Assembly (NCBI GenBank): GCA_945874695.1
Contig: CAMCHP010000022.1
Span: forward strand, 1-41,276
Source: Chryseobacterium gleum
GTDB taxonomy: Bacteria > Bacteroidota > Bacteroidia > Flavobacteriales_D > Sanyastnellaceae
Direction: 5' to 3'
Length of the DNA: 41,276 nt
How positions within the stretch are numbered: position 1 is the stretch's first letter; each line of letters begins with the position of its first letter. A program made the position numbers and the translations under genes. The notes under the pieces are model-generated. The model ran no database searches. It was given only the letters and a program-made list of their open reading frames with translations, and was not told where the DNA came from. This document shows positions 32,213 through 37,415 of this stretch, piece after piece.

Positions 32213-33328
32213 ATGGCTGAGATTACTGAAGGTATCGACGGGGCGCGCAAAATCAATTGCTCAAACTGCGGTGCAGAATTGCGCTTCAAAGCTGGCACAA
32301 CCGAGCTCGGCTGCGACTATTGCGGCACAAAGAATGCCATCGACGTGCAGGCCATGGAAATCGCTGAGCAGGCCTTAGACGATTTCCTGAAAAGCAGTGC
32401 GGCTGAAAGTACAACTGAAGCCGTAAGCGTGGTCGAATGTGAAAGTTGCGGAGCCAGCAATCCCTTTGATGACACAGCAGTTGGCAAAAGCTGTGTGTTT
32501 TGCGGCGGACACCTTTTAGTGAAAGATGCCGCCCGCTTGGAGCAAATCCGGCCGCAGGCCGTTATCCCTTTTCAAATTGCGCACCGCGACGCCATTCAAC
32601 GCTATCAGAAATGGCTCCACGGATTGTGGTTCGCCCCGAACAAGCTCAAGCGCATGCAAAATTTGCCCGACAAACTGAAGGGCATTTACATACCGTTTTG
32701 GACATTCGACGCCGATACCGCGACCAGTTATACGGGGATGCGCGGCATTCGGCGGTCAGAAACCGAAAACTACACGGTGACAGTCAATGGTAAAACCGAA
32801 AACCGCACACGGACCAAAACCCGGGTTGATTGGTACCCTGCAAGTGGCAACGTGAACCATTTTTTCGACGATGAACTTGTGCTGGCCAACGATGCTTTAC
32901 CCGCCGCCATTACCCAACAGCTGCATCCTTGGCAACTCAATGCATTACTGCCTTTTGATCATGACTTTTTGCGCGGTTACCTGGTAGAGAGTTACAACAT
33001 CAACCTTGAACAAGGCTTTGCCATTGGCCGGCAACAAATGGAAGAACAAATTCGGAATTTCGTCAGACGTGACATCGGCGGCGACGAACAGCGCATCACA
33101 AGCATGAATGTGAAGTGGGATAAACTCACATTTAAACACATTCTACTGCCCGTATACGTAAGTGCGTACCGCTACAATGGCAAACCCTACCGTTTCTTAG
33201 TCAACGGTCAAAGCGGCAAAGTACAAGGCGAACGTCCGTACAGCTTCTGGAAAATTGCAGGTGCCGTTGCCTTGGGTTTAATCGTCTTAACTGCACTGTA
33301 CCTGCTCCTCGATGGTGCGTCGGCTTAA
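32213..33328 (+). CDS. Zinc-ribbon membrane protein, partner of the SPFH protein
   Basis: This 371-residue protein has two zinc ribbons near the N-terminus: CSNCGAELRF...LGCDYCGTKNAI, and VECESCGASNPFDDTAVGKSCVFCGGHLLV (four Cys each). A middle region contains YIPFWTFDADTATSYTGMRG and HILLPVYVSAYRYNGKPYRF, a beta-rich domain seen in this family. A C-terminal membrane helix is formed by IAGAVALGLIVLTALYLLL. It is thus cytoplasmic with a tail anchor. The 6-base gap to the SPFH gene indicates co-transcription. The pair resembles the Bacillus YdjG/H-YdjI pairing; the role in this organism is inferred. Confidence 0.8.
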   Translation: MAEITEGIDGARKINCSNCGAELRFKAGTTELGCDYCGTKNAIDVQAMEIAEQALDDFLKSSAAESTTEAVSVVECESCGASNPFDDTAVGKSCVFCGGHLLVKDAARLEQIRPQAVIPFQIAHRDAIQRYQKWLHGLWFAPNKLKRMQNLPDKLKGIYIPFWTFDADTATSYTGMRGIRRSETENYTVTVNGKTENRTRTKTRVDWYPASGNVNHFFDDELVLANDALPAAITQQLHPWQLNALLPFDHDFLRGYLVESYNINLEQGFAIGRQQMEEQIRNFVRRDIGGDEQRITSMNVKWDKLTFKHILLPVYVSAYRYNGKPYRFLVNGQSGKVQGERPYSFWKIAGAVALGLIVLTALYLLLDGASA

Positions 33329-33347: not shown

Positions 33348-33377
33348 TTGACTTCTTTGAAAAAATTTGTATCTTTG
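33348..33377 (+). promoter_or_regulatory. Promoter of the cysteine-attenuator region
   Basis: TTG (33348-33350), 19 bases, then TATCTTTG (33370-33377): a full match to the Bacteroidota -33/-7 pattern. By the usual spacing, transcription should start at about 33382-33384. That is at or next to the leader start codon (33383), so leader 1 should be leaderless or almost so. Confidence 0.75.
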
Positions 33378-33382
33378 ACATT

Positions 33383-33445
33383 ATGATGAATTTTATCACA
33401 TGTACATGCTGTTGTTGTTCGACCCACCCGGGTTCGGAACGGTAG
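33383..33445 (+). CDS. Leader peptide 1, cysteine-codon-rich (attenuator)
   Basis: This is a 20-residue frame, MMNFITCTCCCCSTHPGSER, with five Cys codons in six positions (TGT ACA TGC TGT TGT TGT, 33401-33418), stop TAG 33443-33445. Translation should stall at the Cys codons when charged Cys-tRNA is scarce. Its codons 16-19 (GGGTTCGGA, 33430-33438) can pair with the left arm of terminator 1 (33476-33484; nine pairs, three of them G-U). A ribosome reaching the stop codon would cover that stretch and free the terminator. The peptide probably has no function of its own. Either of the first two ATGs could be used. Confidence 0.85.
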   Translation: MMNFITCTCCCCSTHPGSER

Positions 33446-33470
33446 TATTGTGGTGTGATCACCATATTGA

Positions 33471-33501
33471 AACCCTCCGAGCTTGCTCAGGAGGGTTTTT
33501 T
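33471..33501 (+). terminator. Terminator 1 (attenuator of leader 1)
   Basis: AACCCTCC (33471-33478) / GGAGGGTT (33490-33497), continued inward by GAGC/GCTC with a TT loop and one bulged A, is followed by six T (33496-33501). It lies 25 bases after the stop of leader 1 and before leader 2, so it decides whether transcription reaches leader 2. A smaller GGTG-TGAT-CACC hairpin lies at 33452-33463. Confidence 0.92.
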
Positions 33502-33565
33502 GTTTTAACGCATTTACTTTTTCAGTTTCATAGTAGTTTTATTGGTTAGTACAATTTGGTTAAGG

Positions 33566-33664
33566 ATGGAAAACAACCTGCACATTATGACCTCGACTGC
33601 TTCAGCAATTTGTTGCTGTTGTTGTTTCGCCTTCCGGCGGATAGAGAAAGGTGTGCACCGTTGA
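33566..33664 (+). CDS. Leader peptide 2, five consecutive cysteine codons (attenuator)
   Basis: This 32-residue frame contains AICCCCCFAF (Cys codons TGT TGC TGT TGT TGT at 33611-33625); stop TGA 33662-33664. An internal ATG at 33587 would give a 25-residue version with the same Cys run. The codons for Glu-Lys-Gly (GAGAAAGG, 33644-33651) are the exact complement of CCTTTCTC (33691-33698) in the left arm of terminator 2. A ribosome stalled on the Cys run leaves them free to pair, while one at the stop codon covers them. TACAATTTG at 33550-33558 is a weak -7-like box, so this leader could also have its own start of transcription, again close to the ATG. Confidence 0.85.
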   Translation: MENNLHIMTSTASAICCCCCFAFRRIEKGVHR

Positions 33665-33680
33665 ATTCCTAAGCAAAAGG

Positions 33681-33723
33681 AAAAAAGGGGCCTTTCTCAG
33701 CGGAGAAGGCCCCTTTTCTTTTT
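33681..33723 (+). terminator. Terminator 2 (attenuator of leader 2)
   Basis: A 15-bp stem with one bulge pairs 33683-33698 (AAAAGGGGCC...TTTCTC) with 33703-33717, with loop AGCG, followed by TTTTCTTTTT (33714-33723). It lies 17 bases after the stop of leader 2 and 55 bases before the peroxiredoxin ATG, so it should gate the whole sulfur operon. Confidence 0.93.
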
Positions 33724-33778
33724 GTCGAACTTTCCTACTAACATTCTTCAAGTTCTTTCGTAAACTAAATCAGAATAT

Positions 33779-34441
33779 ATGTCTACTACAAACCAAAATC
33801 CAAATCTTGCCGGTATACCGCGCATTGGTGATCCTGCACCGCAATTCAACACCGTATCAACCCATGGCGCTATTGATTTCGCTGAATACAACCGCGACCA
33901 TTGGGTAGTTTTCTTTGCGCATCCCGCAGATTTTACACCTGTTTGCACCACCGAATTGGTAGAATTCGCACGTAACAAATCGTACTTCGAAGCCCACAAT
34001 ACCCGCTTGATTGGATTAAGCATTGATAGCATTCACGCGCACATTGCATGGGTACAGAACGTAAAAGAACGTACCGGTACCTTGCTTGACTTTCCGATCA
34101 TTGCTGACCTCGACACATCGGTCGCACAGCTTTACGGGTTATTGCACCCGGGCGAGAGCACCACGGCTGCCGTGCGCGCGGTATTCGTTATTGACCCAAA
34201 AGGTATTATTCGCGCAATCATTTACTACCCTTTGAACGTCGGACGCAACATCGAAGAAATCAAGCGTTTGGTGCTGGCTCTCCAAACGGCCGATAAACAC
34301 AGCGTAGCCTTACCTGTAAATTGGGTTGAAGGAGAAAAAGTCGTTGTTCCTCCTCCCAAAACCTGGGCTGAAGTTGGTCAACACGACGGCAAAGGCTATG
34401 AACAAACTGACTTCTACCTGCTTAAACGCAGCTTGAATTAA
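33779..34441 (+). CDS. 1-Cys peroxiredoxin (Prx6-type)
   Basis: This 220-residue thiol peroxidase of the AhpC/TSA superfamily begins with the family segment IPRIGDPAPQFNTVSTHGAIDF. The peroxidatic motif is FAHPADFTPVCTTELVEFA (Cys near residue 54), and the supporting Arg is in AAVRAVFVIDPKG. The long C-terminal part (ADKHSVALPVNWVEGEKVVV, KTWAEVGQ) is typical of Prx6, which reduces peroxides with one Cys. No second resolving Cys is seen in the usual place. It is the first gene after the cysteine attenuators, so its expression should rise when cysteine is scarce. That links oxidative damage, which destroys thiols, to cysteine supply (inference). The cysM-like gene follows after 23 bases. Confidence 0.9.
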   Translation: MSTTNQNPNLAGIPRIGDPAPQFNTVSTHGAIDFAEYNRDHWVVFFAHPADFTPVCTTELVEFARNKSYFEAHNTRLIGLSIDSIHAHIAWVQNVKERTGTLLDFPIIADLDTSVAQLYGLLHPGESTTAAVRAVFVIDPKGIIRAIIYYPLNVGRNIEEIKRLVLALQTADKHSVALPVNWVEGEKVVVPPPKTWAEVGQHDGKGYEQTDFYLLKRSLN

Positions 34442-34464: not shown

Positions 34465-35406
34465 ATGAGCTATACCTTACCGAATAACCCCACCCTTGAG
34501 CGCCTCGAAGAACTCTCGTACTACGTTGGCAATACCCCGCTGTACCCTATTCAAAAGCTTAATCCGAACCCGCGGGTGAAGATTTACGCAAAACTTGAAT
34601 GGCAGCAAATGGGCGGAAGCGTGAAAGCACGTCCGGCATTGAACATTTTGCGCCAGGCAGTAGCTACACGTCAACTCAAACCGGGCCAACACTTGCTCGA
34701 TGCGAGCAGCGGAAATACCGGCATCGCCTACGCGGTGTTTTGCGCAGTGGCTGGCATTCCCATGACCTTGTGCTTGCCTGAAAACGCCAGCGCTGAACGC
34801 AAGCACCTCTTGCACACGCTCGGGGTGAATGTAGTTTACACCAGCCGCTTTGAATCAACCGATGGCGCTCAAGCCGAAGCCCGCGCCTTGGCCGAGGCTC
34901 ACCCCGACCGCTATTTCTATGCCGATCAGTACAACAACGAAAACAATTGGCTGGCGCACTACAACGGCACCGCTGAAGAAATCTTGCAGCAGAGCGGCGG
35001 ACGCATCACGCACTTTATTTGCGGCCTCGGAACAACCGGAACCTTTACGGGTACGGCCCGAAAACTGAGCGAAGTTCGGCCCGACATCCAACGCATTGGA
35101 TTGCAGCCTGAAACCGCGCTGCACGGGTTGGAAGGCTGGAAACACCTCGAAACTGCACGGGTGCCCGGTATTTATGATGCTAACCTTGCACATCACATCG
35201 CCACGGTTGATACCCTGGGCGCTTACGATGTTTTACGCAACGCTGCACGCTACGAGGGTTTGATGCTCAGTCCGTCGTCAGCTGCTAACCTGCTCGGTGC
35301 GATTCAATTGGCAGAAACACTCGATGAAGGCGTAATTGTAACCGTGTTCCCTGACGACGCGTCGAAGTACAGCGAAGTGGTGAACGAAATATTGCGTGCG
35401 CGATGA
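34465..35406 (+). CDS. cysM: Cysteine synthase, CysM-type
   Basis: This 313-residue fold-II PLP enzyme opens with YYVGNTPLYPIQKL. The PLP lysine is in MGGSVKARPALNI (near residue 54), the substrate loop is SSGNTGIAYAVF (near 81), the phosphate-binding loop is CGLGTTGTFTGTARKL (near 190), and the cofactor N1 contact is in LSPSSAANLLG. In mycobacteria CysM uses O-phosphoserine and the thiocarboxylate of CysO instead of free sulfide. The presence here of a JAMM protease, a CysO-like carrier and its activator directly downstream favours that route over plain sulfide. The acyl substrate cannot be told from the sequence. The 3' end overlaps the JAMM gene by 4 bases. Confidence 0.88.
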   Translation: MSYTLPNNPTLERLEELSYYVGNTPLYPIQKLNPNPRVKIYAKLEWQQMGGSVKARPALNILRQAVATRQLKPGQHLLDASSGNTGIAYAVFCAVAGIPMTLCLPENASAERKHLLHTLGVNVVYTSRFESTDGAQAEARALAEAHPDRYFYADQYNNENNWLAHYNGTAEEILQQSGGRITHFICGLGTTGTFTGTARKLSEVRPDIQRIGLQPETALHGLEGWKHLETARVPGIYDANLAHHIATVDTLGAYDVLRNAARYEGLMLSPSSAANLLGAIQLAETLDEGVIVTVFPDDASKYSEVVNEILRAR

Positions 35407-35831
35407 ACCTTGAGTTGAACGCATCAAGCCGCTCCATCATGGAAGCGCACGCGATTGGGAGCTTTCCGAACGAGTGCTGCGGCTTCTTTTTCGGGAAAAA
35501 CAAGGGTGAATCACGCACGGTGACTCATGTATTCGTGGTGAAAAACGCAAAAGAAGGCGACCAGCGGCGGCGCTTTGCCATCGCCCCACTTGATTATTTG
35601 CGCGCTGAGCAAGAGGCCCTGGAACGTGGACTCGATCTGCTGGGCATTTACCATTCGCATCCCCTGCACCCGGCAGTGCCCTCTGAACACGACCTCGCGC
35701 AAGCCTTGCCTACCTTCAGCTACATCATTTTGCAGGTTGAACCGGGTCAAATCATCGACCTGCGCTCCTGGCAACTGAATGAGGCAGGGGCTTTCGTCGA
35801 AGAAACCATCCAAAACACGGTCTCGACCTAA
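35403..35831 (+). CDS. JAMM/Mov34 metalloprotease (Mec/QbsD type)
   Basis: This 142-residue protein has the JAMM zinc site: Glu in FPNECCGFFFG (near residue 24) and the motif HSHPLHPAVPSEHD (near 84-97; H-x-H, then S-x-x-D). The family removes C-terminal residues from ubiquitin-like sulfur carriers: Mec releases cysteine from CysO-Cys, while QbsD and HcyD trim two or one residues from the carrier to expose Gly-Gly. Here the carrier gene downstream ends Gly-Gly-Ser-His, so trimming of Ser-His is one possible task and release of cysteine from the carrier another. The 4-base overlap with cysM supports co-translation. Confidence 0.88.
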   Translation: MNLELNASSRSIMEAHAIGSFPNECCGFFFGKNKGESRTVTHVFVVKNAKEGDQRRRFAIAPLDYLRAEQEALERGLDLLGIYHSHPLHPAVPSEHDLAQALPTFSYIILQVEPGQIIDLRSWQLNEAGAFVEETIQNTVST

Positions 35832-35943: not shown

Positions 35944-36222
35944 ATGGCAAAATTAATTATCCCTACGCCGCTGCGGAAATTCACGAATGACCAAGCGCAG
36001 TTTCAGAGCTCAGGCACCACCGTTCGTGCGGTGATTGACGAACTCATTGCAACGCATGAGCCCTTGCGGCAGCACCTGCTCGACCAAGGCGGACAAATTC
36101 GGTCGTTTGTGCGCATTTATGTGGGCGATGAAGATATGCACGCCTTGCAGCACGATGCTACGCCGGTTGATGAACATACGGTGGTCTCAATCATTCCCGC
36201 CATTGCAGGTGGCAGTCATTAA
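35944..36222 (+). CDS. ThiS/MoaD/CysO-like sulfur carrier ending Gly-Gly-Ser-His
   Basis: This 92-residue beta-grasp protein begins MAKLIIPTPLRKFTNDQAQF and shows the ubiquitin-like VRAVIDELIATHEPLRQHL and FVRIYVGDEDMHAL segments. Its end is VVSIIPAIAGGSH. Sulfur carriers need a free C-terminal Gly-Gly, which is adenylated and thiocarboxylated by a ThiF-like enzyme. Here two residues (Ser-His) follow, as in pro-forms such as QbsE that are trimmed by a JAMM protease, and such a protease is encoded just upstream. The best match by context is CysO. The gap upstream holds hairpins R5 and R6; the activator gene starts 17 bases downstream. Confidence 0.85.
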   Translation: MAKLIIPTPLRKFTNDQAQFQSSGTTVRAVIDELIATHEPLRQHLLDQGGQIRSFVRIYVGDEDMHALQHDATPVDEHTVVSIIPAIAGGSH

Positions 36223-36239: not shown

Positions 36240-37415
36240 ATGAGCACAGAACAAACCCCTGCATTTAGCCGCGAAGAATTGGAGCGCTACAGCAGGCATT
36301 TAATTATACCCGAATTTAACCTTGAAGGCCAGCGCAAACTGAAGGCGGGCAAGGTTTTGGTGATCGGCTCAGGCGGCTTGGGCGCGCCATTGCTGCTCTA
36401 CCTCGCTGCAGCCGGTGTGGGAACCTTGGGCATCGTTGACTTCGATGTGGTTGACGCCTCAAATTTGCAACGGCAGGTGCTTTTTTCGGTTGATGACGTC
36501 GGACGACCGAAGGTTGAAGCCGCGGCTGAACGCATTCGCAAGTTGAATCCGTTCATCAATGTAGTCACGTACAACACGAAATTTACCTCAGCGAATGCCC
36601 TTGAGATCATTGCCGATTACGATGTGGTTGCTGACGGCACCGACAACTTTCCGACGCGGTATTTGGTCAACGATGCCTGCGTGTTGTTGGGCAAAGTGAA
36701 CGTGTACGCGTCGATTTATCGTTTTGAAGGTCAAGCATCGGTTTTTAACGCCTTGCAGGCGGATGGGAGCCGAGGACCCAACTACCGCGACCTCTTTCCC
36801 TCTCCTCCCCCGCCCGGATTGGTGCCGAGTTGTGCCGAAGGCGGTGTATTGGGTGTTTTACCCGGAATTTTAGGTTCACTGCAGGCCAGTGAGGTTATCA
36901 AAGTGTTGACGGGGGTTGGCGAAACCTTGAGCGGACGGCTGTTCTTGTTTGATGCTGCGAGTTTTGAAACACGCACGCTGCGGGTGAGGGCCAACCCTGA
37001 TAATCCGCTTACGGGCGTTAATCCGACCCAAAAAGGATTGATAGACTACGAGCAATTCTGCGGTTTGGGCATAACCGAGCGGCACGCAAACACCACCGTG
37101 AAAGAGATTGACGTTGAAACCTTAGCAACTTGGCGCGATTCGGGCGAAGCGCATCAGTTGATTGACGTTCGCGAGCCCTATGAGTATGCCATCGCTGAAA
37201 TCGGCGGAGATTTGTTTCCACTTGGGCACATTGAAGACTATGCCAGCCGGATTCGACGCGATGTGAAGGTGGTTGTTCAATGCCGCAGTGGGGTGCGCAG
37301 CGCCAAAGCGATTCAGCAGCTCGAAGCCCGCTTTGGTTTTGACAACTTGTACAACCTGAAAGGCGGTATTTTGGCATGGGCCGATCGCATTGATCAGGGC
37401 GTTGCGAAGTATTGA
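36240..37415 (+). CDS. moeZ: ThiF/MoeB-rhodanese fusion (MoeZ-type sulfur-carrier activator)
   Basis: In the N-terminal part of this 391-residue protein (about 1-260) is a ThiF/MoeB adenylyltransferase: [19 protein letters not shown], the nucleotide loop [30 protein letters not shown], and the [13 protein letters not shown] motif. It has a conserved Cys in [16 protein letters not shown] (near 198). The C-terminal rhodanese (about 280-391) has the catalytic Cys in [12 protein letters not shown] (near 347). The enzyme adenylates the carrier's C-terminus and passes sulfur to it. The two CxxC zinc pairs of typical MoeB are not visible. GAACTTTG at 36226-36233 is one mismatch from a -7 box, so a weak internal promoter is possible. 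It ends four bases into a long frame that is not used for aspS. Confidence 0.9.

Follow-up and report, generated by a model that had tools for sequence, protein, structure and literature searches.

Ribosome-mediated attenuators of the trp type consist of a leader ORF with a run of regulatory codons, mutually exclusive antiterminator and intrinsic terminator structures, and a biosynthetic operon downstream. The locus analyzed here has the same parts. It differs in that the amino acid sensed would be cysteine, that two complete units stand in series, and that the host belongs to Bacteroidota, where the only hints of such leaders that we met come from F. psychrophilum (PMC9723704) and B. thetaiotaomicron (PMC7366714). 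The original prediction, made from the letters of the window alone (the whole stretch of DNA analyzed, 41,276 nucleotides), named mycobacteria as the precedent. Poly-Cys leaders are indeed known there, from the work of Seliverstov 2005 on mycobacterial Cys-codon leaders (PMC1262725) to that of Canestrari 2020 on leaderless poly-Cys sORF attenuators, as described in citing papers; however, they have been reported as translation attenuators without evident terminators (PMC13236596, PMC1262725, PMC9031893). As reported, the actinobacterial sORFs resemble the present leaders in being Cys-codon mini-ORFs in front of sulfur-assimilation genes, with a possible leaderless start, and depart from them in controlling translation with no obvious terminators, whereas strong terminators are found here. 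The mycobacterial leaders are therefore an analogue and not the same device.

Other described systems share different features with this locus. The uORFC-8-2 motif of Rhodobacterales cysS has been proposed to attenuate transcription through Cys codons and an intrinsic terminator (PMC8632094), but it has just two Cys codons, precedes cysS and is found in Alphaproteobacteria, unlike the present leaders. In Salmonella mgtCBR, a single leader mRNA carries two consecutive short ORFs that act on transcription, an arrangement called a singular example (PMC3641672); those ORFs sense different signals, ATP and proline, whereas both leaders here carry the same codon. Tandem homologous riboswitches are pseudo-cooperative and are predicted to give a steeper, more digital response (reviewed in PMC9481103). 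They too are two independent same-signal gates in series, with an RNA aptamer as the sensor, in contrast to the translating ribosome proposed here. Neither cysteine leader-peptide attenuation in Bacteroidota nor a series of attenuators for the same amino acid was described in the partial literature covered, which included few subscription papers.

The window comes from a genome of 3.09 Mb in 128 contigs (97% complete), whose nearest relatives are Flavobacteriales MAGs. Its leader region extends from the end of the preceding gene at 33328 to the peroxiredoxin start at 33779, and contains, from 5' to 3', a predicted promoter, leader 1, terminator 1, leader 2 and terminator 2, followed by the peroxiredoxin gene (Table 1). 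The two poly-Cys mini-ORFs, each with its terminator, were located where they had been predicted, and the predicted Cys counts and distances proved right within a few bases. Leader 1 has five Cys in six codons (TGT ACA TGC TGT TGT TGT, 33401-33418) and leader 2 has five consecutive Cys codons (TGT TGC TGT TGT TGT, 33611-33625). The terminators, claimed to lie within about 25 bases of the stop codons, begin 24 nt 3' of the stop in leader 1 and 18 nt in leader 2. The T tract of terminator 2 ends about 54 nt before ATG 33779, close to the 55 bases claimed, and its hairpin ends 61 nt upstream of that ATG. Alignment revealed that the GGTTAA..ATG context at 33566, where leader 2 starts, is common to the relatives. 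A generic terminator scan picked up terminator 2 in shortened form and did not detect terminator 1, which has a bulged stem. At the gathering score, no Rfam covariance model matched the leaders of the window or those of 13 related loci, and neither leader peptide matched any NCBIfam or Pfam family, so that identity with a known RNA family or a known leader-peptide profile was rejected.

The genes of the predicted CysO/CysM/JAMM operon are present, but the first structural gene encodes a peroxiredoxin and CysM comes second. The CysO/SAMP-like carrier ends with its di-glycine in a non-terminal position, so that trimming would be needed; the adjoining JAMM protease, with its motif intact, is the likely trimmer, as happens in QbsD/QbsE-type systems.

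Table 1. Predicted features of the leader region and the operon (window positions).
Feature	Coordinates	Strand	Evidence or remark
Promoter, Bacteroidota type	33348..33377	+	TTGAC 33348-33352; -7 box TATCTTTG 33370-33377
Leader peptide 1, MMNFITCTCCCCSTHPGSER then stop, 20 aa (19 from ATG 33386)	33383..33445	+	ORF; aligned in five near relatives
Region 2 of attenuator 1 (CGGGTTCGGA), antiterminator 5' half	33429..33438	+	pairing search; stalled-state fold -25.7 kcal/mol
Intrinsic terminator 1	33469..33507; hairpin about 33470-33498, then T tract	+	-18.3 kcal/mol with ribosome at stop codon
Region 3 of terminator 1 (TCCGAGCTTG)	33476-33485	+	pairs with 33429-33438
Leader peptide 2, MENNLHIMTSTASAICCCCCFAFRRIEKGVHR then stop, 32 aa (alternative ATG 33587)	33566..33664	+	ORF; start context common to relatives
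Region 2 of attenuator 2 (GAGAAAGGT), antiterminator 5' half	33644..33652	+	pairing search; stalled-state fold -19.5 kcal/mol
Intrinsic terminator 2	33683..33726; hairpin 33683-33717, then T tract	+	-26.6 kcal/mol with ribosome at stop codon
Region 3 of terminator 2 (GCCTTTCTC)	33690-33698	+	pairs with 33644-33652
1-Cys peroxiredoxin (AhpC-TSA + 1-cysPrx_C), first structural gene	33779..34441	+	domain matches
CysM-type cysteine synthase (PALP), second gene	34465..35406	+	domain match
JAMM/Prok-JAB metalloprotease (desampylase/Mec-like)	35403..35831	+	HSHP-x7-S-x2-D motif intact
CysO/SAMP1-like (ThiS/SAMP-like) sulfur carrier	35944..36222	+	C-terminus ...AGGSH
MoeZ-like E1 (ThiF) with rhodanese domain	36240..37415	+	domain matches

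A GTDB genome scan with the CysM protein, together with 60 relatives, gave about 98 loci; those kept were the 86 distinct Bacteroidota-type cysM loci whose upstream sequence reached 350 nt or more. A unit was scored as a mini-ORF of at most 45 aa with at least three Cys in four codons, followed by a strong U-tailed hairpin (relaxed rule). The strict Cys rule (four of six) undercounted doubles, and loci first scored as having none or a single leader had CCC leaders. Relatives, in which Cys-run leaders upstream of cysM were to be sought according to the original prediction, had a leader with a terminator there in 78 of the 86 loci; 33 had exactly two units and none had three. The sample is enriched for near relatives, and the 33/86 doubles are thus not a phylum frequency. 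All nearest relatives of the window carry both leaders; their absence from close relatives, named beforehand as grounds for abandoning the idea, did not occur. In an even draw across the phylum, CysM of comparable similarity was present in 22 of 296 genomes, and among 20 new loci from this draw 15 had a clear leader with a terminator and one had a weak one. Predicted leader-terminator units are phylum-wide in Bacteroidota. As for the doubled arrangement, we found none described in this phylum within the literature covered, in agreement with what had been supposed, but it is common there and not peculiar to this genome.

Under the strict rule, 97 units were found in the 109 kb upstream of cysM, compared with 3 in the 1.53 Mb elsewhere in the same DNA, an enrichment of about 450-fold; the relaxed rule gave 111 units against 3 in 1.53 Mb of the same loci. 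Two of the three background units precede a sulfate-assimilation operon and are apparently real. TGY-rich stretches do exist elsewhere in the genome, as would be expected if the leaders were chance TGT/TGC repeats beside ordinary terminators, but the enrichment upstream of cysM and the antiterminator covariation described below leave that explanation with a negligible probability, and we rule it out. Because the same design recurs across the phylum, the locus is very probably a doubled cysteine-starvation switch and not a chance pattern. When the places with four TGY codons in a row extracted from the window's own genome were screened, none elsewhere had the leader-plus-terminator anatomy; the TGY pattern with one spacer codon was counted at 39 places, compared with 28 for the control. 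In the 60 relatives, the Cys-run-plus-terminator pattern returned mostly the known cysM leaders, and the one extra site in each of two genomes (G012 and G031) was without that anatomy.

Both TGT and TGC are used within the Cys run in 89 of 111 leaders, which indicates that the amino acid is kept, not a nucleotide repeat. The run is the one constant feature of the peptide, and the first gene of the operon in the window is a peroxiredoxin; both would suit a poly-Cys peptide active in its own right through metal binding or redox sensing, for example by stalling of the ribosome by an oxidized or metal-bound nascent peptide. We consider such activity improbable, since apart from the Cys run the peptide is poorly conserved in the phylum, most loci have no peroxiredoxin match between the leaders and cysM, and the geometry of the units is tied to the codons through RNA.

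Doubles were concentrated in the relatives of the window, Saprospiria and Chitinophagaceae. Cultured species with a single leader include Flexithrix dorotheae and Gynurincola endophyticus. Mapped on the CysM tree, the double state required 12 changes, at least five of them forced by well-supported branches, and was thus gained or lost repeatedly. Within pairs, Cys codons were fewer in the first leader (23 vs 3, p 6e-5), and the Cys run there was followed by a shorter tail (28 vs 5, p 4e-6), which argues that the two leaders are not interchangeable copies. In four Chitinophagaceae loci (L059, L075, L078 and L084) the cysM leaders have only CCC, often with a second Cys codon or pair later (e.g. 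RCCRR); three of these four are doubled, and the terminators differ in sequence.

For each leader, the best pairing was sought between the stretch 3' of the last Cys codon and the 5' arm of the terminator. The pairing score was 18.99 with a leader's own arm compared with 14.18 with exchanged arms (z 16.3; 0 of 5000 permutations), and the signal was present in single, first and second leaders (z 9.9, 7.8 and 6.5, respectively). Counted from the first base of the last Cys codon, region 2, the leader side of this pairing, started at 11-19 nt in 80% of cases; dinucleotide shuffles gave 18%. This is the distance at which RNA emerges from the ribosome when the codon sits in the A site. In the window, region 2 starts 13 nt after that base in attenuator 1 and 21 nt after it in attenuator 2, where it occupies the positions 18-10 nt before the leader 2 stop codon. 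Its distance to the stop codon differed by leader class, whereas that to the last Cys codon was constant, which identifies the Cys codons as the anchor.

The stalled-state fold, computed for the RNA from the edge of the stalled ribosome to the terminator loop, was stabler than with shuffled spacers (mean z -2.8 over 111 leaders). In the window, the antiterminator is stronger than the terminator in leader 1 and weaker in leader 2 (Table 1); because antiterminator 2 is the weaker structure at equilibrium, the switch there would be kinetic. The 1:2 protector hairpin, which many but not all trp-type attenuators possess, gave no conserved signal across the loci (mean z about 0), and leader 1 of the window does fold as such a hairpin in the ribosome-free state. 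A ribosome at the stop codon fits masking of region 2 well in first leaders. In second and single leaders, most of region 2 precedes the stop codon and such a ribosome covers just part of it, so that the timing of release must matter.

The predicted -7 box of the window, TATCTTTG, ends 5 nt before the first ATG of leader 1. TAnnTTTG is the -7 consensus reported for flavobacterial sigma A promoters (PMC9723704). We found it within 90 nt upstream of 21 of 33 first leaders, 1 of 33 second leaders and 15 of 45 single leaders, with a shuffle rate of 6% per 80 nt; the difference between first and second leaders has a Fisher p of 1.3e-7, a value that ignores the relatedness of the loci. Across pairs, the ATG of leader 2 followed terminator 1 at a median distance of 33 nt. 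Since the box stands before first leaders and almost never before second ones, a single promoter most likely serves both gates in series.

Between terminator 1 and leader 2 (33510-33548), the window itself has some 35 bases that are absent in near relatives, and TACAATTTG, a near-match to the -7 box, adjoins them (near 33550). Given these species-specific bases and the near-match, a second promoter upstream of leader 2 is possible in this species. It could be argued from this insertion, and from a weak sigma-70-like match at 33527-33555, that only leader 2 functions, from its own promoter between the terminators, and that the first leader and its terminator are a relic or form a short RNA of their own. 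We regard this as unlikely: the nearest relatives all keep both leaders without the insertion, the covariation and geometry of first leaders are the same as those of second leaders, and TAnnTTTG precedes just one second leader in 33.

The short spacing of the -7 box also means that leader 1 may be leaderless, as is possible for the mycobacterial sORFs. Together with the occurrence of poly-Cys leaders before sulfur genes in mycobacteria, this could suggest that translation is attenuated here as well, with stalling on the Cys run uncovering the start of the next gene and the hairpins being incidental. Among first leaders, however, the distance from the box to the ATG ranges from 4 to 32 nt. Moreover, nearly every leader is followed by a strong U-tailed terminator at a fixed place with a co-varying antiterminator, and the terminator lies 5' of the gene start without overlapping it. 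Translation attenuation is therefore a quite improbable account of these leaders.

We interpret the locus, with a probability of roughly 0.85, as two trp-type ribosome-mediated transcription attenuators that sense Cys-tRNA, are arranged in series downstream of a single promoter and control a cysteine-synthesis operon. Conservation, a co-varying antiterminator at the edge of the stalled ribosome, and a promoter box before the first leader only all lend support to the original prediction of two cysteine attenuators in series; the genes downstream make cysteine. From these sequence patterns we infer translation of the leaders, stalling on shortage of Cys-tRNA, termination or read-through in the cell, and a benefit of the series. 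When charged Cys-tRNA is plentiful, the ribosome would pass the Cys codons of leader 1, reach the stop codon and mask or melt region 2, upon which terminator 1 would form and transcription would end. When Cys-tRNA is short, the ribosome would stall on the Cys run and leave region 2 free to pair with region 3 before synthesis of the terminator's 3' arm, and RNA polymerase would continue. Leader 2 would repeat the test with its own regions 2 and 3. The operon would be transcribed only after both gates have been passed, so that read-through would be the product of two probabilities, giving a tighter shut-off and a steeper response. The gates may be tuned differently, the first by fewer Cys codons and a stop codon beside region 2, and the second by more Cys codons and a stop codon beyond it.

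With less assurance, we favor the broader view that cysteine attenuators across Bacteroidota have repeatedly been doubled into differently tuned same-signal gates, forming a pseudo-cooperative, translation-sensing switch that would imply close coupling of transcription and translation. If true, this would be a widespread RNA switch in a phylum with few characterized ones. It predicts that the CysM/CysO/JAMM route is controlled like a switch, as is sulfate assimilation in Balneolales. Since the mechanism requires coupling, transcription-translation coupling in Bacteroidota would become directly testable, and related species, some with one unit and some with two, would offer a natural comparison of what doubling does to the response curve.

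The units are also found in other arrangements. In one locus (L089, 3904-4847) the peroxiredoxin gene stands between the two units, with one leader before peroxiredoxin and the other before cysM, so that the units can separate and gate different genes. Two further loci (L081 and L098) were noted alongside it. In Balneolales (Fodinibius), the leader (L087, 4172-4231, minus strand; L088, 4378-4437, minus strand) is Cys-rich (MCMCCC...), is followed by a very strong terminator and fronts a divergent operon read as thiosulfate sulfurtransferase, sulfite reductase, CobA and CysH; the cysM leaders of these genomes themselves are without a clear terminator. Three further loci, from the even draw across the phylum (L139-L141), resemble this case in that their Cys-rich leader and its strong terminator are directed away from cysM. 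The Balneolales leaders suggest a wider cysteine-attenuation regulon. A SAM riboswitch (Rfam RF00162) was found at 386-490 on the minus strand of locus L045, a stretch that also carries a doubled Cys leader; RNA controls for both sulfur amino acids would thus coexist in that genome.
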